From: a virus | Reading direction: 5' to 3' (one strand) | Length of the DNA: 31,394 bases | IMG/VR virus record: IMGVR_UViG_3300011113_000377 | Span: 1 to 31,394 of that record | In this document: positions 7,395 through 29,027 of the stretch, in pieces | Position numbering within the stretch: position 1 is the stretch's first letter | Layout: each line of letters opens with the position of its first letter | Program-made: the position numbers and the translations under genes | Notes under the pieces: model-generated | What the model saw: only the letters and a program-made list of their open reading frames with translations | What the model was told of the DNA's origin: nothing | Database searches by the model: none

Positions 7395-9525
7395 AGTGAT
7401 TATTGATGTTGAGGTGCAGGGAGTGCAAGACGCTCAAAAAGACCTTGAAAAAGTCAACTCATCAGCTTCTGAGATAGGCGACTCAGTCAAAGGTGTTGGC
7501 GAGTCTTTTAAAGGTGTTGGCGCAGTTGTTTCTGCTCAAGGTGGAGTCATGGGGGAAGCGTTTAATTCCCTTGGCGAGTCAGTTGGCGGTTTAGTTGATG
7601 GATTTAGCGCTATGAGTGAAGTCATGACAACTGGAGGCAAGAGTGGCATGCTGGCATTTATGGGAATGCTTGGACCTATTTCCGCAATAGCTGGCGCTTT
7701 AGCGTTGGCAATAGAAGCGTTTAGGCAATTTAGTGGAGCGGCCAAAGAAGCGGAGCAAATAGAAGCAGCAGTGACAGCGGCGGCCAGTGATTTGACTTCC
7801 AAGATGGAAGAGTTGGCTGATAAGGGGATAAAGCCAACAAATGACGAATTAAGAAAGTTAATCGGCTTAAATTCTGAAGCTAGACTCAAGCTTGAAGTGT
7901 TAAATGAGAAAAATGCAAGTTTAACAAAGGTTTATACTGAGCAAATTTTAGCACAAAAGTTGCTTGAGAAAGAGCAAAGAATTTATTTAGCTCAGACAAA
8001 TGAGCGAATTAAATCTGATGCCTATGTGATATCAGCTCAAGAAAGATTGGCGAAAGCTGATAAAGAAGTTGCTAAAGCTCAAGAAGAATTAACTAAGGGG
8101 TATGAGGCAGCATTGCCAGCGATACAAAAGGCTCAAGAATATCAAAGAGAATTGGCTATGACTGAGCAAGAAGCAATGGATGCACTTAAAGCACAATTAG
8201 AAATTCAAAAAGAATACAATGATTTATTGCTCAGCACTTCCACGCTATCAGCCTATGAAAAATCAATCTTACAAAAAGAAAGAGATTTGAGCGTTGAGCA
8301 AAGACTTGCCGGCCAACATGGTAAGACCAGCAAAGAAATTCAAGCACTAACTAAGGTTATTGAAGAAGAAAATAAGGCAAGACAAGCAGGGGAAACGCTC
8401 CAGCTAAAAGAGATTAAAAATCAACAAGAAATCGAGCAGATTAAAAAGGCTGAGGCTGATCGATTAAAGGCTGAGCAAAAGGCCAGATCAGACGCTTTCA
8501 AAGCAAGACAAATGCAAGTGATATCTGAGCAATCTCAAATCAATGCACTTGAAATTCAATTGACTAAATCAGGATTTGATGAGCAAATAGCATTGGCGGA
8601 AAACAATTATAAAACTGCGCAAATGCTAAACAAATATAATAAAAATCAATTGCTCATTGCTGAAAAACAATATCAATTAGCGATTAGAGATATCAATGAT
8701 CAGCAACTGGCACAAGAACAGGCCAAAGTTGTAGAGCAAGAAAGAATCAATCAAGAGTTAATCAGCCAAAGAAATGCATATAGTGAGGCAGTTTATCAAT
8801 CAATGGTAGCTTATGGAGCTAAGGAGCAAGAGTTAAGAGATAAGATTGCAATTCTGGATATTGAAGCGGGCAAAGATGAATATCAAAAACAACTCGATCT
8901 ATTAGCTAAAAATCAAGAGATTGAATTAAGATCAGTTGAGAATAATGAGATTGCTAAGGCTGAAATTCAAAAGAGATACGCAAATCAAAGAGTAAAGGTT
9001 GAAAGCTATGCGGCCGCTCAAATGGGGGAGATGGCAACCGCTACCACTCAAGCATTTGCTGCGTCGGTTGCAGGTGCAATCATGGGAGCTCAATCAATGC
9101 AAGAAGCAATCAAGGCAACGCTTGAAGGCCTAGCACAAGAAGCAATCACCAGATCAATCTTTGCAACCGCTATGGGATTTTCCGCTTTGGCTTTAGGTCC
9201 TATTGGCGGGGTATCTGCTAGCCAGTATTTCAAATCAGCTGCTTTATTTGCTGGTGTTGGTGCTGTTGCTGGTATTTCATCAAAGGCTATGGGAGGAGGG
9301 GGAAGCGGTGGAGGATCTGCTTCTAGCGTGTCTCCCACTGGTCTTGCTCAATCTCAAGCGCCATCTAGACCGGAAGCCAGCAAAACCGAGCCAATGATTT
9401 TTAATATCAATCTTGGCGGTAGTGTGATCTATGATACAAAGGCCGCTGCTGAGCGTGCATTTGCTGATAGAATAGTTAGACAGATCAACAACTCAAACAG
9501 AGGAATGGTACGATTAAATGCCTAG
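7381..9525 (+). CDS. Tail tape measure protein
   Basis: The 714-residue protein has the usual tape measure build. There is a short alpha/beta start (KVIIDVEVQGVQDAQKDLEK), a hydrophobic segment around 90-115 (MLGPISAIAGALALAIEAF), a long helical and probably coiled-coil middle rich in Gln, Glu, Lys and Ala (roughly 120-545), and a second hydrophobic part (roughly 550-640). It ends with a Gly/Ser-rich linker (GGGGSGGGSASS) and a beta-rich tail. It sets the tail length and may enter the host membrane during DNA ejection. By the common rule of about 1.5 angstroms per residue, 714 residues suggest a tail of about 100 nm. It directly follows the frameshifted chaperone, the standard order. The start overlaps the end of the fusion frame by 14 bases. 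Confidence 0.9.
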   Translation: MAENKVIIDVEVQGVQDAQKDLEKVNSSASEIGDSVKGVGESFKGVGAVVSAQGGVMGEAFNSLGESVGGLVDGFSAMSEVMTTGGKSGMLAFMGMLGPISAIAGALALAIEAFRQFSGAAKEAEQIEAAVTAAASDLTSKMEELADKGIKPTNDELRKLIGLNSEARLKLEVLNEKNASLTKVYTEQILAQKLLEKEQRIYLAQTNERIKSDAYVISAQERLAKADKEVAKAQEELTKGYEAALPAIQKAQEYQRELAMTEQEAMDALKAQLEIQKEYNDLLLSTSTLSAYEKSILQKERDLSVEQRLAGQHGKTSKEIQALTKVIEEENKARQAGETLQLKEIKNQQEIEQIKKAEADRLKAEQKARSDAFKARQMQVISEQSQINALEIQLTKSGFDEQIALAENNYKTAQMLNKYNKNQLLIAEKQYQLAIRDINDQQLAQEQAKVVEQERINQELISQRNAYSEAVYQSMVAYGAKEQELRDKIAILDIEAGKDEYQKQLDLLAKNQEIELRSVENNEIAKAEIQKRYANQRVKVESYAAAQMGEMATATTQAFAASVAGAIMGAQSMQEAIKATLEGLAQEAITRSIFATAMGFSALALGPIGGVSASQYFKSAALFAGVGAVAGISSKAMGGGGSGGGSASSVSPTGLAQSQAPSRPEASKTEPMIFNINLGGSVIYDTKAAAERAFADRIVRQINNSNRGMVRLNA

Positions 9526-19878: not shown

Positions 19879-19920
19879 GAATTGTGTTTTAATGATCATC
19901 CCCTTTACATGGAGAAGATC

Positions 19921-21861
19921 ATGTCACAAAACGCACTTCTTGGCAAAGTTGCTTTTGCCACTCAATACGCACATATCAAACCGGATGGAAAAAGAGAAAC
20001 TTACATTGATGCGATGCGAAGAGTCAAAAATATGCATCAAGAAAAATTTCCTTATTTATCATCAAGCATCGATCAAGTTTTTCATAAATTTGTATATCCT
20101 GGATTGGTGTTTCCATCTCAAAGAAGCACGCAATTTGCGGGGGTTGCTATCAAACGCAACAATATGAGGATGTACAATTGCACTGCATCCTATATCGATA
20201 GAGTACGATTTTTCGCTGAGGGTTTTTGGCTACTCATGAGCGGATGCGGTGTCGGTTTTTCAGTGCAAAAGCATCATATTAACAAGCTCCCAAACTTGAT
20301 TTCTAAAGATCAAAGAGACTCAAGACTGAAGAAAATTCATGTTGTTGAAGACTCAATCGAGGGATGGGCTGAAGCTATCAACTCACTCATGAAAAGTTAT
20401 TTGCCAGCCAATGAAGATGAGGCTGGCTACTGCATAAATTTTCATTATGATCAAGTAAGGCCAGAAGGATCTCCCATCTCCATTGGTGGCGTTGCTCCAG
20501 GTCCCAAAGTGCTTGAAACGGCAATTGAAAAAGTCAGATCTATTCTTGATGATGCAGTCAATCAAGGTCAAGCAAGACTCAAGCCAATCCAGTGTTTTGA
20601 TATCTTCATGCACATAAGCCACGCCGCACTTTTAAGCTCAAGACGAGCAGCGACAATTGCACTCTTTTCACCGGATGATGATGAGATGATGACCGCTAAA
20701 ACTGGCGATTGGTGGAAAGACAATCCCCAAAGAGCTTATGCAAATATCAGCGCTCAAATCGTCTTGGATGGATGTGAGAAAAAAGAGACCTTTACAACCA
20801 TCATCGACAATGCGAAGCAGTACGGCGAGCCAGGTTTCTTCTTTGCATCTAGTAAAGATTTTGCAACAAATCCATGCGGGGAAATAGGTCTTTACCCCAC
20901 CTATAAAAATGAAGATGGAAGCACTGAAAGCGGCTGGGCCGTATGCAATTTAAATGAAATTGTTGTTGCAAAGATTGACAATGCGGATCAGCTCAAAGAA
21001 GTATGCGCCGCCGCTGCCTTCTTAGGTACTCTTCAAGCCAGCTATACAAACGCCGGCTATCTTGGAGATACCACTAGAAAGATCATTGAAAGAGATGCAC
21101 TTTTAGGCGTCTCTATGACTGGCATCATGAGTGCACCAGGAATGATTTTTGATGAATTTCTGCTGAAGTCTTGCGCTCAAATCGTGATTGATGAAAATAA
21201 GTTGATTGCAAAAAAGATCGGTATAAATCCAGCACTTAGAGCAACAACAATCAAGCCGTCTGGCAATAGCTCAACGGTGGCCGGTTGCTCAGCCGGCATC
21301 CATCCGTATCATGCTAAAAAGTACATTCGCACCATGAGAATAAATAAAATAAATCCGATTTGGCAAGAGATCATCAGCCAGTTGCCGGAAGTTTGCGATG
21401 ATAGAGATCCACAAGTTGGGATTGTCTCTTTTGCTTGTGAAGCGCCAGCCGGTGCAATTGTCAGAAAAGATCTATCAGCGGCTGACTTCTTGGAGAAGGT
21501 GGAATTTATCCAACGCTACTGGGTAAAGCCAACAACACAACTCAGGGAAAAAGATCAATTTGGATTGACTCACAATGTTTCAAATACATGTACCGTCAAG
21601 GCTGATGAGTGGGATGATCTGACATCTAGGATTTGGCGTCTTAGAGATAGCGTAAAAGGGATATCTCTTTTATCTGACTATGGCGATCATGTTTTTGAAA
21701 ATGCACCTTATCAGACAGTTGAGGATGATAACATTGATCTGGTTGAAAAATATAATAAATTGCTAGCGGCTGACTGGTCAAAGGTCAATCTCAATGTCGG
21801 TGGTTTCAAAGAAAATCCGGCAGTTGAACCAGCTTGTGCCGGTGGCGTTTGCCTTATTTAA
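19921..21861 (+). CDS. nrdJ: Adenosylcobalamin-dependent ribonucleoside-triphosphate reductase (class II)
   Basis: The 646-residue enzyme matches the monomeric class II reductase typified by Lactobacillus leichmannii RTPR. MYNC (C87) and C342 in CNLNE are the expected pair of active-site Cys that reduce the substrate; C319 in NPCGE with E321 is the thiyl site. SGCGVGFSVQ and TIKPSGNSSTVAG follow the family pattern. The C-terminus ends PACAGGVCLI with C639 and C644, the C-x4-C shuttle pair that re-reduces the active site. The enzyme turns NTPs into dNTPs using coenzyme B12 and needs no oxygen and no small subunit. It is about 90 residues shorter than the L. leichmannii enzyme (739). ATG 19921 has GGAGA at 19911-19915, so the shorter start is preferred. 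Its stop overlaps the opposing annealing protein's stop. Confidence 0.9.
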   Translation: MSQNALLGKVAFATQYAHIKPDGKRETYIDAMRRVKNMHQEKFPYLSSSIDQVFHKFVYPGLVFPSQRSTQFAGVAIKRNNMRMYNCTASYIDRVRFFAEGFWLLMSGCGVGFSVQKHHINKLPNLISKDQRDSRLKKIHVVEDSIEGWAEAINSLMKSYLPANEDEAGYCINFHYDQVRPEGSPISIGGVAPGPKVLETAIEKVRSILDDAVNQGQARLKPIQCFDIFMHISHAALLSSRRAATIALFSPDDDEMMTAKTGDWWKDNPQRAYANISAQIVLDGCEKKETFTTIIDNAKQYGEPGFFFASSKDFATNPCGEIGLYPTYKNEDGSTESGWAVCNLNEIVVAKIDNADQLKEVCAAAAFLGTLQASYTNAGYLGDTTRKIIERDALLGVSMTGIMSAPGMIFDEFLLKSCAQIVIDENKLIAKKIGINPALRATTIKPSGNSSTVAGCSAGIHPYHAKKYIRTMRINKINPIWQEIISQLPEVCDDRDPQVGIVSFACEAPAGAIVRKDLSAADFLEKVEFIQRYWVKPTTQLREKDQFGLTHNVSNTCTVKADEWDDLTSRIWRLRDSVKGISLLSDYGDHVFENAPYQTVEDDNIDLVEKYNKLLAADWSKVNLNVGGFKENPAVEPACAGGVCLI

Positions 21862-22766
21862 TACCTCTTCCAATGTCTGGCCTCATCTTCTCCTAGATCT
21901 TCCACCAGCTCTTTGTATTCATCTTCATCCAGCTCTCTTAGAAGGTCCATCTCTCTTTCATCCAGCTTTTTTCTCATTGATGTGTTATTGTACGCGTGCT
22001 GTGTGATAGCTGCTTTCTGCTCACTTGGGAATGGTGCAGGTTGTGGCGATTTGCTTTGTGCTGGTTGCACTTGCACCGGTTGCACTGGCTGAGCAGGTTG
22101 CACTTGTACCGGTTGCACTGGTTGCACTGGTTGCACTGGCATTGGCTGAGTCTTGACGGGAGTCTTTGGCTTAGCTGGTGCAGTTTGTCTTGTACTGGTG
22201 ATTTGAGTATCAAGTTCACTATTCAAAATCTCAAGTCTTTCATCTTCGCTCATATCCATGCTATCAGCAATCTCAACTGCATCATAGCCACTGATCACAT
22301 CGCCAAAGACGTCACGCACTGCCATTGATTTGCATCTGGCCATGAGCATTTGCTTTGGCATGGTCTGCCACTGACGATTATTTGTAAGGCCTTGGCGTTG
22401 TGCCATTTCAATCGTGAAGCTGACAACATACTTTTGATTATTGTCTGATCTAGTAAATTCGAGTGAGCATTCAACATCTGAATTGGTCAAAACACGCCAA
22501 GATTTGCACTTTGAAGAAGCAATCACAATGCCAAACATTGTTGCAGCTTGATATGTGATCTTGCCTTTAATGACATTCATCTTTTCCATTGTTTGCGCGA
22601 TATTCCAGCCGTGCATGATACCATAAGACAAATAAGCGGTGGTCAATTGTTGTGCGGTCCAGTTTGTGCCAGTGGTCAAAAATCCTGCTAGCTTTACGAT
22701 TTGCTCCATACTTCCGGCGATTGCGTTGATGTCTGAAAGAGACTCTAAAAGCTTTTGAGTAGCCAT
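21858..22766 (-). CDS. Single-strand annealing protein, RecT/Red-beta-like, with proline-rich tail
   Basis: The 302-residue product starts at ATG 22766 with AGGA about eight bases upstream. Residues 1-170 have the phage annealing protein pattern: LSYGIMHGWNIAQTMEKMNV with IKGKITYQAATMFGIV, then TMPKQMLMARCKSMAVRDVF and GDVISGYDAVEIAD. Such proteins anneal complementary single strands in phage recombination and concatemer repair. Residues about 200-240 are a low-complexity Pro-Val-Gln linker, and the last 40 are strongly acidic and helical (DEREMDLLRELDEDEYKELV). The acidic tail may bind other replication proteins; this is an inference. Last gene of a minus-strand cluster that reads toward the reductase gene; the two stops overlap (21858-21861). 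Which subfamily (RecT, Erf or other) is uncertain. Confidence 0.7.
   Translation of the reverse strand: MATQKLLESLSDINAIAGSMEQIVKLAGFLTTGTNWTAQQLTTAYLSYGIMHGWNIAQTMEKMNVIKGKITYQAATMFGIVIASSKCKSWRVLTNSDVECSLEFTRSDNNQKYVVSFTIEMAQRQGLTNNRQWQTMPKQMLMARCKSMAVRDVFGDVISGYDAVEIADSMDMSEDERLEILNSELDTQITSTRQTAPAKPKTPVKTQPMPVQPVQPVQPVQVQPAQPVQPVQVQPAQSKSPQPAPFPSEQKAAITQHAYNNTSMRKKLDEREMDLLRELDEDEYKELVEDLGEDEARHWKRY
22061..22140 (-). repeat. Short tandem repeats encoding the PVQ linker
   Basis: Near-identical nine-base units (GGTTGCACT on the plus strand) encode the repeated Pro-Val-Gln of the annealing protein linker. They are the kind of repeat that changes length by slippage. The opposite strand also has long open frames here, which are by-products of the repeat. 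Confidence 0.8.
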
Positions 22767-22776
22767 GTTGATTATC

Positions 22777-22995
22777 CTATTGTGCGATTTGAGAAAGTTG
22801 AGTGTTGATTGCAGCAATAATCTGATCAGGTGATGCAGATTGATCTAGAGAAAGAGAAGCGATCTTGATTGTGAGTGTGTGAGTGCCAATTGTGAAAGAT
22901 ACATCATCACAATCGATTTCCCAGTCTTCAAAGAAGTCATCAAACTGATGCATAAGTTTTGCAGTTTGATCAAGTTGAGTGAGGTTGAGTTTCAT
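22777..22995 (-). CDS. Small acidic phage protein, unknown function
   Basis: The 72-residue protein lies ten bases upstream of the annealing protein on the same strand. It begins MKLNLTQLDQTAKLMHQFDD and has an acidic middle (FFEDWEIDCDDVSF), then beta strands (TIGTHTLTIKIASLSL) and a helical end (PDQIIAAINTQLSQIAQ). The ribosome binding site (AAGG) is moderate. No family is recognised. The tight spacing suggests co-transcription with the recombination gene, and it may assist DNA metabolism; this is an inference from position. Confidence 0.55.
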   Translation of the reverse strand: MKLNLTQLDQTAKLMHQFDDFFEDWEIDCDDVSFTIGTHTLTIKIASLSLDQSASPDQIIAAINTQLSQIAQ

Positions 22996-23874: not shown

Positions 23875-25368
23875 TTAAAAGTGCTGTCTATCTGAAATTC
23901 TTTGACAACTTCCCAAAAATTCAACGTGTGCAGTTTTGCATTCTCCATGACGATTTTTTGTCACTATGATCTCCATGTCGGTCTCAGATGCATGCTCGTC
24001 ATATGCATATTCTCTATAGAGCATCATCACAACATCTGCATCTTGCTCAATAGCGCCAGACTCTCGAAGATCGCTCAATAGCGGTCTTTTATTTGCTCGC
24101 TGCTCAACTCCACGATTGATCTGAGCTAGCGCAATCACTGGACAACTCATCTCTTTGGCAAGTGCCTTTAATCCCCTGCTGATTTGAGAAATCTCTTGCT
24201 CTCTGATCATGGCTGGAGATGTCATAAGCTGAAGATAGTCAACGATAATCAAGCCAACGTCTTCGCTTCTCTTTTTGATGTCACATATAGATCTCATCTC
24301 ATCTATAGATAGCGCTGCTCGGTCAATAATCTCTAGAGGCATAGATTTGATTTCAAAGAGAGTCTCAGCAATTTTGTCTTGTGTGTGACTGGCTAACTGG
24401 CCAAAAGGCTGATCAAAAATTGTCTGAGAAATCCCACTCCAGTTACTAGCCAGCCGTTTAATCAGCTGAGTATCTGGCATCTCTAGAGAAAAAAATAGAG
24501 TTTTTTTATTCGGTTGTGCCTGCATTGCTGCTAAAGCGAAAGTGAGGGAAACGGCGGTTTTACCCATGGCAGGCCTACCTGCTACCACATATAAGCAGCC
24601 GTCTTTCCATCCTTTTGTGATGTTATCTAGATTTCTTAATCCACTTGATAGGCCTTGCTTAAAATCCTTCATAGACTCAAGCAGAGATTGCACTTGTTGA
24701 GATAATCCCATATTTGGCTTTGGCTTAAGATCTTTTACCTTCCGTTCGTTCTCAAGAAAAACGTCATCGCACTCTTTGAGAGAATAGCCGTGCGCCAATG
24801 CAATTTCTTTATAACGATAGATTTGGGATAGTCTCAGGCTGATAAAATCATCATAGATTTTATTGATATGATCTTCAACAACATGAATCATGGCTGGTCC
24901 TCCATAGTAGACGTGGCACGGATCCAAATTCTCAGCCATCCAACTGCAAATATATTCCGCAAGCATACTTTGCTTATAGGTCTTTCTTCTCTCTTCATGA
25001 GTACGCTGATAGACATCAACGACATTCTCAAAATTGATAGGTCTTTGATTTTGTCTTAGCTCGATGCAGACATTAAATAAGCATATACATGTATGATCAA
25101 TCAAAATCCTTGGATCTGGGATCATCTTGAAGATCATTATTTTAACGGCTTCGCTGCGTTGCTCCAAAGAGAAGGCCAAGGATCCATCAGGCTGTGTTGA
25201 TGTGATAGATGATGGCCAAAGCAATTGAGTGAGAACGAATCGAATTCGGCTTTGAAGCAAAAGTTGGCGATCATAATTCATGTCTTGCCATGACTGGCTC
25301 ATGATATAGTCAAAAGTGACTTCGTTGTAGCCATCCTCTGGATTTTGAAAAGTTTGATATGCAGTCAT
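23875..25368 (-). CDS. dnaB: Replicative DNA helicase, DnaB family
   Basis: The 497-residue protein has a helical N-terminal half and a RecA-like ATPase C-terminal half. Walker A is GRPAMGKT at 264-271, the catalytic Glu lies in SLEM (E296), Walker B is IIVDYLQLM at 374-382, and the arginine-finger region includes KNRHGE at 471-476. The INRGVEQRANKRPLLSDLRES segment with GAIEQDAD is also a DnaB hallmark. As a hexamer it unwinds the replication fork 5' to 3'. The N-terminal half is longer than that of host DnaB and not closely similar, typical for phage helicases. Its start overlaps the end of the small HTH gene (ATGA). The partner loader is probably the AAA+ domain of the gene at 25686. Confidence 0.92.
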   Translation of the reverse strand: MTAYQTFQNPEDGYNEVTFDYIMSQSWQDMNYDRQLLLQSRIRFVLTQLLWPSSITSTQPDGSLAFSLEQRSEAVKIMIFKMIPDPRILIDHTCICLFNVCIELRQNQRPINFENVVDVYQRTHEERRKTYKQSMLAEYICSWMAENLDPCHVYYGGPAMIHVVEDHINKIYDDFISLRLSQIYRYKEIALAHGYSLKECDDVFLENERKVKDLKPKPNMGLSQQVQSLLESMKDFKQGLSSGLRNLDNITKGWKDGCLYVVAGRPAMGKTAVSLTFALAAMQAQPNKKTLFFSLEMPDTQLIKRLASNWSGISQTIFDQPFGQLASHTQDKIAETLFEIKSMPLEIIDRAALSIDEMRSICDIKKRSEDVGLIIVDYLQLMTSPAMIREQEISQISRGLKALAKEMSCPVIALAQINRGVEQRANKRPLLSDLRESGAIEQDADVVMMLYREYAYDEHASETDMEIIVTKNRHGECKTAHVEFLGSCQRISDRQHF

Positions 25369-25589
25369 AGGATTTCACCGATAAACTGATAACAAGTTGG
25401 CGCTGCGTATAGGAAGAATTGATGAGAGATTTTTGTTGACTTCTCAAGTTTAAGTGCCAGTTTCATAGGTGCATGAGCATCATCTTTCATGATTTGATAG
25501 AGTCTCATCCTAGTGATGCCAGCTTCCTCAGCAATCTTTGTGGCGGTCTTGCCAGTTTTTAAAAGTAATACAGACATTTTTTTAGTCAT
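25365..25589 (-). CDS. Small helix-turn-helix DNA-binding protein
   Basis: The 74-residue product has MTKKMSVLLLKTGKTATKIA, followed by EEAGITRMRLYQIMKDDAHA, a short helix-turn-helix of the Cro/YdaS-like kind (roughly 13-36). It lies immediately upstream of the helicase gene and downstream of the divergent promoter region, an excellent position for a regulator of both promoters. The C-terminal half is partly hydrophobic (FFLYAAPTCYQFIGEIL) and may serve dimer formation. It may be a Cro-like regulator of the early genes; no CI partner is visible, so it does not by itself imply lysogeny. Confidence 0.65.
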   Translation of the reverse strand: MTKKMSVLLLKTGKTATKIAEEAGITRMRLYQIMKDDAHAPMKLALKLEKSTKISHQFFLYAAPTCYQFIGEIL

Positions 25590-25613
25590 GATTTCTCCAT
25601 TTGTTTTTTTTGA

Positions 25614-25641
25614 TTGAAATTATTTTTTACTTTTGTATATT
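25614..25641 (+). promoter_or_regulatory. Rightward promoter for initiator/loader gene
   Basis: TTGAAA (25614-25619) and TATATT (25636-25641) are separated by 16 bases on the plus strand. The start codon of the initiator gene is at 25686. It overlaps the opposite promoter almost completely, so one polymerase or a bound regulator would affect both. Confidence 0.5.
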
Positions 25642-25660
25642 GTGTCTTATTGTTTGTCAA
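25632..25660 (-). promoter_or_regulatory. Leftward promoter for HTH and dnaB genes
   Basis: On the minus strand TTGACA (plus coordinates 25655-25660) is followed by TTTGTA on the plus strand (TACAAA on the minus strand) at 25632-25637 after 17 bases, or TATACA after 15. The sequence around the -35 box (TTTATTGACAA) is identical to that of the other minus-strand promoter at 23839-23844. Confidence 0.55.
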
Positions 25661-25685
25661 TAAATATTTATCAAGGAGAAGCAAG

Positions 25686-27014
25686 ATGAAGCTAAAAAAT
25701 GCAAGATTTGACAACTTTCAATTCATTATCGGCAATTTGATGCGCTGTCCATTGCTGCAATCGGTATCACATGGATTTGCTTTGATGTATCGGATTTTTG
25801 AGTTTTATGAGTTTGAATCCATGAGTCAAGACATGTCTTTTGAATGCACGTACGCCGATTTATCATCTGAAATAGGAGTATCTGAGCGGATGATCACAAG
25901 ATCGATCGATCAGCTTTGTGCACTGGGATTGATCCAGAAGAAGAAAAGAATAAGCAAGACTCAGTTTTTTATCATGCCTTCAACGGTTGAAAGATACTGG
26001 ATGAGAACGATTGACTTTAAAAACATGATTGCAGGCTCGATAAATGCGGATCCTACCAAAAATGGTATAATCGAAACTACCAAAAATGGTATAATCGAAA
26101 CTACCAAAAATGGTATAATCGAAACTACCAAAAATGGTATAATCGACATACCAAAAATAGTAAGATCATATATATATGAAACTAATGAAACTAATAATGA
26201 AACTAATAATGAAATAAAAGAAAACTACGTAAAAGAAAAGACCGGCTCAAAAAGCGAAGCGTGGATACTGATTGAAAATAAAATGAAGATGAAAGATGGC
26301 CGTCTTATGGCAGACTTTCAAGATCCTCCTGCTGAATGGTCAAATCGCAATGATGGCACATGCTACTCTCTTTTAGACGCTACGCAGCACGATAAAGAAA
26401 GATCTAGGATCAATGCCATATCTAGACAGCTGTCAGCCAGTTATTTTACTGATCATCATAGAAGCATGTATCTGGATCACTTCAATGCCAGCCAGCTTAC
26501 TCAAGATCAAATCATCGGCCTCACCTCTATGACTCAAGATCAAAATCTAAAGGTCTTTATCACTGGACCAGCTGGATCAGGCAAGACGCACCTCATGACT
26601 GGCCTTTTAAAGCGTATCGCAGAAGAAAGACGCTACGCCGGCCGGCTTCATGAAGTGGGAAGATTTTTTTATGGCACTCTTGACCAGCTGGACCGATGGA
26701 GAAAATCGGAGTATGACAAAGCCAAAGCGGAAAATAAGCCAATTCCCTCCGTCGGTGATTTACTATCAAAATTTGATATCATCTGCATTGATGATTTTAT
26801 GGCTGCAAGACTCAATCCATTATTTGAATTGACAATTGATCAATTTATTGAGCTAGCAAACTCTTTCAATGGATGCTTGATTTTAGCGTCTAGAAACGAT
26901 TTAAATCACTTGCCTATACCTTCACAGCCAAAGAGTGATTTAAATCGATTTAAAGCGTGTTTTTTAAACACAACAATTTCACTCACTCAAAAAAATAAAT
27001 ATGAAATCAAATAA
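25686..27014 (+). CDS. Replication initiator fused to AAA+ helicase loader
   Basis: The 442-residue protein joins two functions. Residues 1-115 form a winged-helix type domain (LSSEIGVSERMITRSIDQLC, then ALGLIQKKKRI), as in lambda O or DnaD-like initiators. Residues 124-155 are four copies of TKNGIIET, encoded by DNA iterons. A polar linker follows, and residues about 265-440 form a DnaC/DnaA-like AAA+ ATPase with Walker A GPAGSGKT at 294-301 and Walker B IICIDDF at 365-371. It should bind the origin and load the phage DnaB. The ATG at 25686 has AGGAG upstream; in-frame starts further upstream lie inside the promoter region. An origin inside the initiator gene is as in lambda, but there the loader is a separate protein (P). 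Confidence 0.85.
   Translation: MKLKNARFDNFQFIIGNLMRCPLLQSVSHGFALMYRIFEFYEFESMSQDMSFECTYADLSSEIGVSERMITRSIDQLCALGLIQKKKRISKTQFFIMPSTVERYWMRTIDFKNMIAGSINADPTKNGIIETTKNGIIETTKNGIIETTKNGIIDIPKIVRSYIYETNETNNETNNEIKENYVKEKTGSKSEAWILIENKMKMKDGRLMADFQDPPAEWSNRNDGTCYSLLDATQHDKERSRINAISRQLSASYFTDHHRSMYLDHFNASQLTQDQIIGLTSMTQDQNLKVFITGPAGSGKTHLMTGLLKRIAEERRYAGRLHEVGRFFYGTLDQLDRWRKSEYDKAKAENKPIPSVGDLLSKFDIICIDDFMAARLNPLFELTIDQFIELANSFNGCLILASRNDLNHLPIPSQPKSDLNRFKACFLNTTISLTQKNKYEIK
26055..26167 (+). repeat. Four perfect 24-bp iterons plus a degenerate fifth (origin)
   Basis: Units of ACCAAAAATGGTATAATCGAAACT start at 26055, 26079, 26103 and 26127. The fourth changes only in its last five bases, and a degenerate fifth half-copy lies at 26150-26167. 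Each unit contains the inverted repeat ACCA-AAAA-TGGT and TATAAT. The unit length of 24 is a whole number of codons, so the reading frame is kept. Tandem units with internal dyad symmetry, inside the initiator gene and next to AT-rich DNA, match the iterons of lambda ori. Confidence 0.85.
26168..26230 (+). other. AT-rich tract, probable DNA unwinding element of the origin
   Basis: Directly after the iterons the DNA is very AT-rich: 26161-26230 has 57 A/T of 70. It contains ATATATATAT and three imperfect copies of GAAACTAATAAT. A weak duplex next to initiator binding sites is what an origin needs for melting. It codes for a Thr/Asn/Glu-rich linker in the protein, so the amino acids are probably dictated by the DNA. 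Confidence 0.65.
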
Positions 27015-27229
27015 GTCAGCCATTTGTTTAATCATTGCCAACTCCATCCTAAGCGAAGAGACCTATTGTTTGAGTGCGTAGAACCTTCGGAGTGGCAACA
27101 AATCGCCGGTCATTTGGTTAAATGGAAATCACAAAATACGCTAAACTAAAACCGACCGGCTCAAATCTTGCCTGCGACCTTTTTGTGAAGTATGAAAACA
27201 ATCGAATGCGTAGCACCTTGGCAGGCAAT
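27015..27229. other. 215-bp convergent intergenic region with structured repeats and tiny reading frames
   Basis: No gene longer than 47 codons fits here. The region holds two similar segments: GAGTGCGTAGAACCTTCGGA at 27072-27091 and GAATGCGTAGCACCTTGG at 27204-27221. Three hairpins can be drawn: 27035-27045 with 27089-27098; 27105-27111 plus 27116-27119 with 27150-27160; 27168-27175 with 27221-27228. There is no T-run after any stem on either strand, so no standard terminator is seen although two genes converge here. Small reading frames are described under findings. Confidence 0.5.
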
Positions 27230-27265
27230 TTACATCTTTACGATATCAATTCCATTCATAGATAA
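27122..27265 (+). CDS. Possible 47-residue protein (uncertain)
   Basis: An ATG at 27122 follows a stop codon TAA immediately upstream and opens 47 codons: MEITKYAKLKPTGSNLACDL, then FVKYENNRMRSTLAGNLHLY and DINSIHR. The composition is normal for a small protein, with alternating hydrophobic residues. There is no clear ribosome binding site, and the last 36 bases run antisense into the dCMP deaminase gene. It competes with another frame in which this region shows a codon-level repeat. It is listed only as a possibility. Confidence 0.2.
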   Translation: MEITKYAKLKPTGSNLACDLFVKYENNRMRSTLAGNLHLYDINSIHR

Positions 27266-27670
27266 ATACTCTTCCCCCGTAGAGATCCATCTATCACTGT
27301 TGTTTTCATAGACCACTGACTTGATACCAGCATGATGGATCAGTTTCGCACACATCAAACAAGGTGGCGCCGTAACATAAATCGAACATCCCTCAGTGGC
27401 TATCCCACATCTAGCAGCATTCGCAATTGCATTAAATTCAGCATGGTGGCAACCGATCTGGCTTTCTGATCCACTTGCTATTTTATTTATATCTCTTAGG
27501 CAACAATTTCCCCCACAAAGGCCGGCCTGCTTTCTAGCAATGCCATTGAAAGATGATACCACTGGCACATCCCCCCGAACGATAACGGCGCCAACTTTTG
27601 CTCGATTGCATGGAGATAGACTAGACATTATCCCAGCCATATCTAAAAAGGCCTTATCTTTAGCAGTCAT
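27230..27670 (-). CDS. dCMP deaminase (deoxycytidylate deaminase)
   Basis: The 146-residue product has the zinc deaminase signature: H76-A-E78 (CHHAEFNAI) and P-P-C104-L-M-C107. E78 is the proton shuttle, and H76, C104 and C107 bind zinc. It turns dCMP into dUMP, the substrate of thymidylate synthase (ThyX is in the same cluster). The ATG at 27670 has AGGA six bases upstream; earlier Met codons lie in the overlapping upstream gene. Additional Cys (C52, C56, C57) may bind a second metal, as in T4-type dCMP deaminases. It overlaps the preceding transglycosylase gene by 11 bases. A related cytidine deaminase activity cannot be ruled out. Confidence 0.85.
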   Translation of the reverse strand: MTAKDKAFLDMAGIMSSLSPCNRAKVGAVIVRGDVPVVSSFNGIARKQAGLCGGNCCLRDINKIASGSESQIGCHHAEFNAIANAARCGIATEGCSIYVTAPPCLMCAKLIHHAGIKSVVYENNSDRWISTGEEYLSMNGIDIVKM

Positions 27671-28136
27671 GACAATCCTCATCTTTGGAAGCAAAGCAGG
27701 CCAGATCAGCAGCCAACTTGAGAATTGCTTTAGATCTTTTACCGCACTTGCCTTTATTGCCTACTGTGTATCTGCCTAAAGCAAGACAAACATCCCCTTG
27801 ACTATTGATCAGCCATGTTTGATAAGCCTTTATTCCATACTCGATTTCACTGCATCCAGTACAATCGACAAATTGTTTTTTTACCTGCATCACTCCTTTT
27901 GCTCCAGCTGATGAAGTCAAGCCAGCTTCAAACCGGCTTTCATAGTAGGCTAGAGCAATCATGAGATATGGATCGATTTCAAACTTGTCTGCGGCTTTGG
28001 CTACATGCAAACACTGATCCATTCTGGCGGGGATGGATTTGGCAATCAGTTTGCTCCATCCAGTACTATGAGGAGACCGACTAGGATTCACTATCAATCC
28101 CATCACAATCCAGCAAATTTCAAAATAACTAGTCAT
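27660..28136 (-). CDS. Lytic transglycosylase (SLT family), exported
   Basis: The 158-residue protein starts at ATG 28136 with GAGG six bases upstream. The N-terminus MTSYFEICWIVMGLIVNPSR looks like a signal sequence or anchor. The SLT domain has the catalytic Glu in ALAYYESRFE (E66) and the conserved SAGAKGVMQV at 76-85. These enzymes cut the glycan strands of peptidoglycan. Its place between a zinc-ribbon gene and dCMP deaminase, away from the M15 endolysin, is unusual. It could act in lysis as a second enzyme, or locally in entry or exit. Nine Cys in a short protein (including CTGC and the last C.DC) suggest disulphides in the periplasm. Confidence 0.75.
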   Translation of the reverse strand: MTSYFEICWIVMGLIVNPSRSPHSTGWSKLIAKSIPARMDQCLHVAKAADKFEIDPYLMIALAYYESRFEAGLTSSAGAKGVMQVKKQFVDCTGCSEIEYGIKAYQTWLINSQGDVCLALGRYTVGNKGKCGKRSKAILKLAADLACFASKDEDCHDC

Positions 28137-28311
28137 CTTCATCCTCACTCTTTGTTATATCATCCCACTCATAAGAATAATCGACATCATCAAAAGATAA
28201 TACGATTGCGTTTTGATCGAGGATTGCTCGGCAGTTTTTACAATAATGATATTCTATACTAGATCCAGCTAGGCTTGATCGGATTTCATTCTGACATCTT
28301 AGGCATTGCAT
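28129..28311 (-). CDS. Small zinc-ribbon protein
   Basis: The 60-residue protein has two CxxC knuckles, C3-C6 (MQCLRC) and C24-C27 (YHYCKNC), 17 residues apart, a zinc ribbon. The C-terminal half is acidic (DDVDYSYEWDDITKSEDEDD). The gene overlaps ThyX at its start (26 bases) and the transglycosylase at its end (eight bases). Small zinc ribbons in phages may bind nucleic acids or proteins; the acidic tail argues more for protein contact. No specific function can be assigned. Confidence 0.65.
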   Translation of the reverse strand: MQCLRCQNEIRSSLAGSSIEYHYCKNCRAILDQNAIVLSFDDVDYSYEWDDITKSEDEDD

Positions 28312-28957
28312 TGATAAGCTCCATCGTCTTGGGAAAAATTGTTGATGCTATATCATACACTGCTTTGGCAAATTCCTGCATCTCAAATTGTGCATGACTG
28401 TCTAAACGCAGCTTTAAAAAGTGCATCACTGCCTGAGTGCTAGCGCTCCAAATGCATTCGCTATAAGTGCCAACTGGCAAAATAATTCTTGCCTGCTCCC
28501 TGCAAACTCCCATATCAAGTAAACGCAAATAATTGCTGTATGCAACTTGATAGCTTTCAACAAAAAGAGTCAACGCTTGATCTTCTTTTTCATCATCTAG
28601 TTGGCCAATAGACGATTGCTTGTTTTTAGTGTCTTGCAGTCTAAAGCAATCCGGATAAAAGAAACTCTCTTTAATCTCGGTGTATCTTGCTGATTGCTCA
28701 TTCCATGCACAGCCGACTTGATGCTTCATCCACTGCCTCAAAACAAAGATCGGCGCTTTAATCCTAAACTTCACACTGCCATGTCTAAAGGGAGATGAAT
28801 GATTGTGCTCCCAAAGATATCTCAAAAGTTTCTCATCCCTATCAGACCAATCTTTACTCTCTCCGGCATAAGAGACACGAGCGGCGTTGACAATTGCCAG
28901 ATCATCCCCCATGTGGTCAATCAACTCCACAAATCCATCACTCACATTTATTTTCAT
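28286..28957 (-). CDS. thyX: Flavin-dependent thymidylate synthase ThyX
   Basis: The 223-residue enzyme starts at ATG 28957 after AAGGAGC; upstream Met codons lie in the AT-rich control region. It has HSSPFRHGSVKFRIKAPIFV and the signature region RQWMKHQVG (74-82), then NEQSARY (86-92). The family motif RHRx7S is altered to K78-H79-Q80 with S89 kept. A KHQ form is, from memory, common in phage ThyX. The enzyme makes dTMP from dUMP with FAD, NADPH and methylene-tetrahydrofolate. With dCMP deaminase downstream it forms a dTTP supply pathway, useful in a host with a limiting TMP supply. First gene of the minus-strand cluster that ends at 27230. Confidence 0.9.
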   Translation of the reverse strand: MKINVSDGFVELIDHMGDDLAIVNAARVSYAGESKDWSDRDEKLLRYLWEHNHSSPFRHGSVKFRIKAPIFVLRQWMKHQVGCAWNEQSARYTEIKESFFYPDCFRLQDTKNKQSSIGQLDDEKEDQALTLFVESYQVAYSNYLRLLDMGVCREQARIILPVGTYSECIWSASTQAVMHFLKLRLDSHAQFEMQEFAKAVYDIASTIFPKTMELINAMPKMSE

Positions 28958-28982
28958 AATGTGCTCCTTAAAAATATTATAT

Positions 28983-28998
28983 ATTATTATATAATAAT
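28983..28998. promoter_or_regulatory. 16-bp perfect palindrome in the thyX divergent region
   Basis: ATTATTATATAATAAT (28983-28998) is a perfect palindrome in the 86-base gap between thyX and the 91-residue gene. It lies on the thyX side. It contains TATAAT on both strands, so it may be an operator, a -10 region for leftward transcription, or both. Confidence 0.4.
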
Positions 28999-29007
28999 TG
29001 TTGTTAA

Positions 29008-29027
29008 TGTGTTTATATAATAACACA
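29008..29027 (+). promoter_or_regulatory. Inverted repeat around a rightward -10 box
   Basis: TGTGTT (29008-29013) and AACACA (29022-29027) are inverted repeats eight bases apart. They frame TATAAT (29016-29021), a perfect -10 hexamer in the forward direction; no good -35 hexamer lies at the right distance. This looks like an operator on the promoter for the SSB-terminase cluster. Confidence 0.4.

Follow-up and report, generated by a model that had tools for sequence, protein, structure and literature searches.

A candidate replication origin inside a phage gene that seems to join an initiator to a helicase-loader-type ATPase

Introduction

Work on helicase loading has usually dealt with a relay from an origin-binding protein to a separate loader. 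In phage lambda, the C-terminal part of the initiator O binds P, and P brings DnaB. The four lambda iterons occupy codons 117-144 of O; they are bound by O mid-way in its own gene, and the adjacent AT-rich tract opens (PMC7466680, PMC6022878). In the staphylococcal plasmid pSK41, the N-terminal ~120 amino acids of Rep bind four Rep boxes within the rep gene, the linker encoded by the origin (residues 121-199) can be deleted without loss of function in trans, and the C-terminal domain is DnaD-like, binds the DnaG primase and contacts the replisome (PMC5703833). An origin placed in the hinge of an initiator is already known from both lambda O (PMC7466680, PMC6022878) and pSK41 Rep (PMC5703833).

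Here we describe an uncultured phage whose replication very probably starts at a repeat array within its own initiator gene. One protein seems to combine the marking of the start site with the loading of the helicase, two tasks that are split between two proteins in the other phages examined. The unusual part of this locus is the fusion to an AAA+ domain and not the origin in the linker.

Results

A three-part gene divergent from dnaB

The window, i.e. the whole stretch of DNA analysed, is IMG/VR record IMGVR_UViG_3300011113_000377, positions 1-31,394, an uncultured viral contig of 31,394 bp. The record is probably incomplete, since a large-terminase-like ORF runs past its right end. The features considered below are the following.

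23875-25368, minus strand: DnaB-type phage replicative helicase (Pfam DnaB_C, 5.3e-84)
25365-25589, minus strand: small divergent HTH protein of 74 aa, conserved in 14 loci
25590-25685, no strand assigned: divergent intergenic promoter region, with TTGAAA-N16-TATATT at 25614-25641; gene order conserved
25686-27014, plus strand: candidate fused initiator/helicase-loader gene, one ORF of 442 aa
25686-26000, plus strand, codons 1-105: N-terminal winged-helix-type domain (sub-cut-off profile matches, low-confidence model)
26053-26148, plus strand: four tandem 24-bp iterons, with period and position kept in relatives
26149-26172, plus strand: degenerate fifth unit that links the array with the AT-rich tract
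about 26156-26226, plus strand: AT-rich tract with TAATGAAACTAA repeats, candidate unwinding element (GC 0.15 in the best 60 bp)
26166-26186, plus strand: invariant 21-mer TCATATATATATGAAACTAAT, with a 14-bp palindrome inside (26166-26179)
26487-26975, plus strand: AAA+ domain of the DnaC/IstB/DnaA clade, by profile matches and Walker motifs
26565-26588 and 26778-26795, plus strand: Walker A (GPAGSGKT) and Walker B (IICIDD), both conserved in relatives

The ORF starts at ATG 25686, is preceded by an SD-like AAGGAG, and its start is common to the relatives described below. The array, the degenerate fifth unit and the AT-rich tract all lie within it, the iterons at codons 123-155 and the repeats together with the AT-rich tract at codons 123-186. 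A preliminary description had proposed that one protein carries a winged-helix part, the iterons with the AT-rich tract, and an AAA+ part in this order, and we indeed found this three-part layout in a single ORF.

In 14 loci, dnaB and the small HTH gene are both retained next to the initiator-loader gene, from which they diverge. The phage DnaB is the expected client of the putative loader. In the intergenic region, matches to the promoter consensus were no more frequent than in shuffled sequence. Elsewhere in the window, this small phage carries a nucleotide-metabolism set (a ribonucleotide reductase-like protein, a deoxycytidylate-type deaminase and ThyX; 19882-21861, 27230-27694 and 28286-29026). 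A proline/glutamine-rich tandem repeat (22063-22141) lies in the C-terminal part of a RecT-like annealing protein (21858-22817, minus strand).

A C-terminal AAA+ domain resembling helicase loaders

By searching profile collections with the C-terminal half of the protein, we found matches to the PHROG of DnaC-like loaders (PHROG 50, 4.6e-7) and, in NCBIfam, to IstB (4.5e-8) and Hda (7.9e-8). The curated cut-off of Pfam IstB_IS21 was not reached (19.6 bits vs 24.1). With hhalign, the AAA+ part aligned to a DnaC-family alignment over 171 columns with a probability of 97.4% (E 1.2e-11), compared to 56.5% over 71 columns for E. coli DnaA, which was represented by a single sequence. Conversely, an HMM built from the DnaC alignment found the gene at 25686-27014 with an E-value of 1.7e-6, and this was its only match across the window, which has no second DnaC-like ORF. 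Besides its Walker motifs, the protein shares with the DnaC/DnaI/IstB ATPases a C-terminal Arg motif, SDLNRF, which by eye resembles the DRLR-type motif of DnaC.

An AlphaFold model of the C-terminal part, of low confidence (pLDDT 56), had Hda, DnaA, IstB and DnaC as its first PDB matches, and the best 12 rows of a second structural alignment were DnaA, IstB and DnaC chains only (Z 5.6-6.3). Such Z scores, near 6, do not reach what counts as clear, and we take this model as supporting evidence only. Together, the profile matches place the C-terminal half among the AAA+ ATPases of the DnaC/IstB/DnaA/Hda clade, and its likeness to DnaC-family loaders supports the earlier assignment to the helicase-loader type. 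The C-terminal model agrees with this clade assignment without being strong evidence for it.

Because the scores for Hda or DnaA are as good as those for DnaC, these comparisons do not by themselves tell a loader apart from a DnaA-like opener. Hence the array might well be an origin while the AAA+ part is a DnaA/Orc-like ATPase that opens it, the helicase being recruited by some other protein, for instance one of the host. Hda and DnaA do rank alongside IstB and DnaC in both profiles and structure, and a PDB profile search also listed Hda, weakly. We nevertheless consider this reading unlikely: the longer and stronger alignment favours the DnaC family over the single DnaA sequence, the PHROG match names DnaC-like loaders, and the phage has its own DnaB in a window without any other match to the DnaC profile.

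The N-terminal part resembles a winged helix, with weak matches. Below the curated cut-offs, it matched HTH_Crp_2, HTH_24, MarR and phage replication-initiation PHROGs. Its helix and strand order comes from a low-confidence full-length model (pLDDT 41), which was set aside as poor. A RepA_N domain was absent among the Pfam matches listed for this part at E 1. We also compared its profile with those of lambda O and one other O protein and obtained a probability of 0.4%, that is no detectable homology, with alignments that were shallow. With homology looked for and not detected, the protein should not be filed in the lambda O family.

A direct 24-bp repeat followed by an AT-rich tract

The array had been described as four exact 24-bp iterons with internal dyads, encoding a linker of four TKNGIIET repeats. 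We confirmed the four tandem copies, and a 22-bp core, CTACCAAAAATGGTATAATCGA, is exact in all of them and occurs nowhere else in the record. Likewise, a 21-bp core of the iteron had no match in 100 dinucleotide-preserving shuffles. Over the full 24 bp, however, only copies 1-3 are exact. Copy 4 has one mismatch (CGACA), so that TKNGIIET is encoded exactly three times and the fourth repeat reads TKNGIIDI. The internal dyad, TACCA-N4-TGGTA, is present in the window unit, where a shuffled unit equals it 10% of the time. By a gapped score, the arm is 5 bp in the window (p 0.10) and 6 bp in the related contig L005 (p 0.03), as compared to p 0.007 for lambda, and no dyad was found by this score in the units of the L008 and L017 clades. 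Since the dyad is weak in the window and absent from these clades, what is conserved is the 24-bp direct repeat rather than an inverted one.

The degenerate fifth unit and the AT-rich tract that had been reported to follow the iterons were both confirmed, the former in all relatives examined. Windows of 60 bp with a GC content as low as that of the tract make up 0.2% of those in the record; it is not the minimum of the record, two other stretches being lower in GC. In a scan of viral contigs, the 21-mer TCATATATATATGAAACTAAT was found in 13, every one of them from the family of the window protein, and the version in L019 and L020 has one base different.

The array is kept by all relatives that include the linker

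The protein is encoded in 16 other IMG/VR contigs, 15 of which include the linker. These relatives amount to about seven distinct sequences with 67-84% identity, all metagenomic and closely related. All 15 linker-bearing contigs have, in the same place, 3-6 in-frame units repeated at a period of 24, together with the junction unit and the AT-rich tract; we looked for a relative that kept the protein and lost the repeat, and there was none. The unit is ACTACCAAAAATGGTATAATCGAA in the window, ACTACCCAAATGGGTATAATCGAA in L005-L007 and ACTACTGAAAACACTACAATCGAA in L008-L020 (with variants), and the copies inside one genome mostly change together.

The fusion, which had been suggested as a trait to look for in related phages, is a single ORF in every relative except L017. 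There, an in-frame TAA (8307-8309) at codon 109 falls between the winged-helix part and the linker, with the next ATG at most five codons on. This TAA, seen in a single assembly, may be an error, a dead gene, or a split into initiator and loader.

Outside this group, no relative turned up among 50,697 phage records or 72,556 plasmids searched with tblastn, and a search of genome contigs gave no confirmed one. Viral contigs were scanned again with other segments of the protein, with the neighbouring DnaB and with the AT-rich 21-mer, and only the same closed group came back. Three candidates were rejected, L033 as a spurious short match, and L072 and L073 because they share the DnaB core only, with no initiator-loader relative seen.

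The cassettes right after the stop of the initiator-loader gene differ between relatives (L008:7429-8001; L005:5145-6017; window 27015-27230). A SegE-like GIY-YIG endonuclease gene overlaps the stop in L007, L008, L013, L017 and L019, and a PAPS-reductase-domain gene follows it in L005 and L015, with nothing there in the window. In the 3' part of the window gene, a near-perfect 17-bp inverted repeat lies around GATTTAAATC (26894-26950), which arises partly because DLN codons repeat.

Selection acts on the iterons and the AT-rich tract at the DNA level

Comparing the window with L005, we counted 14 nonsynonymous and 0 synonymous differences in the iterons (dN 0.21, dS 0.00), while dS is 1.68 in the winged-helix part and 0.77 in the AAA+ part. 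Five comparisons of the AT-rich segment gave dS values of 0.07-0.33, with the domains on either side ranging from 0.77 to saturated. We then compared codons across four lineages and obtained the expected counts by amino-acid-matched resampling from the rest of the gene. In the AT-rich segment, 19 of the 20 comparable (same-residue) codons are identical in the four lineages, with 7.6 expected. Adding the iterons brings this to 27 of 32 codons against 11.5 expected, a count that none of 20,000 resamples reached. Moreover, from one clade to the other all copies of the iteron were switched as a unit, and this altered the protein, AAA AAT becoming CAA ATG and KN becoming QM. The change from the window unit to that of L005 is compensatory in the dyad, where an A-T pair became C-G. 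Since the iterons have a dS near zero and codons of the AT-rich segment are invariant, the protein yields to the DNA in the linker, and selection acts at the DNA level on both elements.

Recent recombination among relatives, instead of selection, could also lower the synonymous divergence of the linker, and the gene does bear traces of exchange at its 3' end, next to the swapped downstream cassettes. There, the last ~70 codons also have low synonymous divergence with signs of exchange, which recombination may explain since the neighbouring cassette has been exchanged between relatives. For the AT-rich tract this cause is less likely because the adjacent iterons differ between lineages: a tract of ~90 bp would have had to move repeatedly between lineages with differing iterons next to it, and the tract is equally fixed in four lineages. 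As the cause of the low synonymous divergence of the linker, recombination in place of selection is very improbable, although in so small a region, with relatives recombining nearby, part of the low dS could stem from local exchange.

We give as little credit to the possibility that the repeats are a minisatellite-like protein linker grown by slippage, with no function as DNA and the origin lying elsewhere. Copy number does vary, copies are homogenised within each genome, and interdomain linkers tolerate repeats. Slippage accounts poorly, however, for an iteron dS near zero amid many nonsynonymous changes and for the invariant AT-tract codons, as well as for a place and period that are the same in all relatives and an AT-rich 21-mer restricted to this family.

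Finally, each iteron of the window holds an extended -10-like TGGTATAAT (within 26053-26148) that is not retained in the other clade. Together with the small conserved HTH gene on the divergent side, this could point to a role in regulation or partition in place of an origin, with the units serving as operators of the HTH protein, as tandem promoters or as a centromere. We hold this reading to be highly doubtful, given that the other clade has TACAAT instead of TATAAT in most of its units and that an array inside a gene, by an AT-rich tract and beside dnaB, has the anatomy of an origin. Tandem promoters were rejected, no promoter-like site being called within the array.

Discussion

Taking our observations together, the array and the AT-rich tract are probably an intragenic origin bound by the phage's own initiator, and this initiator would be joined in one chain to a DnaC-like loader for the phage helicase. 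GC skew is uninformative here because it is confounded by gene direction. By analogy with ori-lambda, the N-terminal winged-helix part would bind the 24-bp iterons as an oligomer, and the bound oligomer would strain the adjacent AT-rich tract until its strands open. The C-terminal AAA+ domain of the same chains, as a DnaC/DnaI-type loader, would then put the phage DnaB on the exposed single strand, and replication would start at the array. The protein segment encoded by the origin would serve as a tolerant, unstructured hinge.

The plan is lambda-like, as had been proposed: a DNA-binding-type domain at the N-terminus, iterons and then an AT-rich tract in the linker in the middle of the initiator, and a domain for a replication partner at the C-terminus, as in the origins of lambda O and Stx phage O. 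Also as in these phages, iteron number varies between relatives (four vs six), adding residues to the protein (PMC7466680, PMC6022878). On the evidence available, the window protein appears to work like lambda O, although no N-terminal homology was detected. Lambda uses a separate loader, P, whereas the C-terminal domain of the window protein is an AAA+ ATPase itself. The lambda iterons are inverted repeats, while in the window family the dyad is absent in one clade. The predicted origin likewise shares with that of pSK41 Rep, of the RepA_N type, a three-part plan with repeats in the linker between N- and C-terminal domains, but the C-terminal domain of Rep is DnaD-like and not an AAA+ loader.

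In all four phages inspected (Javan274, YMC11/11/R3177, ctQRb9 and IME307), a separate DnaC-type gene of ~250-275 aa lies beside an initiator or a hypothetical gene, in contrast to the loader-type domain of the window, which follows the putative origin and its linker in the same protein. No repeats were found in the initiators of Javan274, YPHTV-1 and Lucielle, so not every phage has iterons within its initiator gene. In the open-access literature we found no description of a phage initiator fused to a DnaC-type loader, which is no proof of novelty. DnaA and Orc1-Cdc6 do have an AAA+ domain and a DNA-binding domain in one polypeptide that acts at origins; unlike them, the window protein has its DNA-binding part first, and its putative origin is inside the gene.

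On balance, we lean towards a self-contained, cis-acting start, in which the middle of the gene is the origin and its single product recognises this origin and loads the phage DnaB through its own AAA+ domain, with no separate loader. If true, this would be a DnaA/Orc-like combination that arose independently in a phage, with the domain order reversed. Such a natural fusion would hold origin recognition and helicase loading at a fixed stoichiometry and geometry. It would also offer a minimal system in which recognition, opening and loading could be reconstituted with one protein, ~180 bp of DNA and one helicase. As the clades have different, matched iteron types, N-terminal domains and arrays could also be swapped among them as a probe of specificity.
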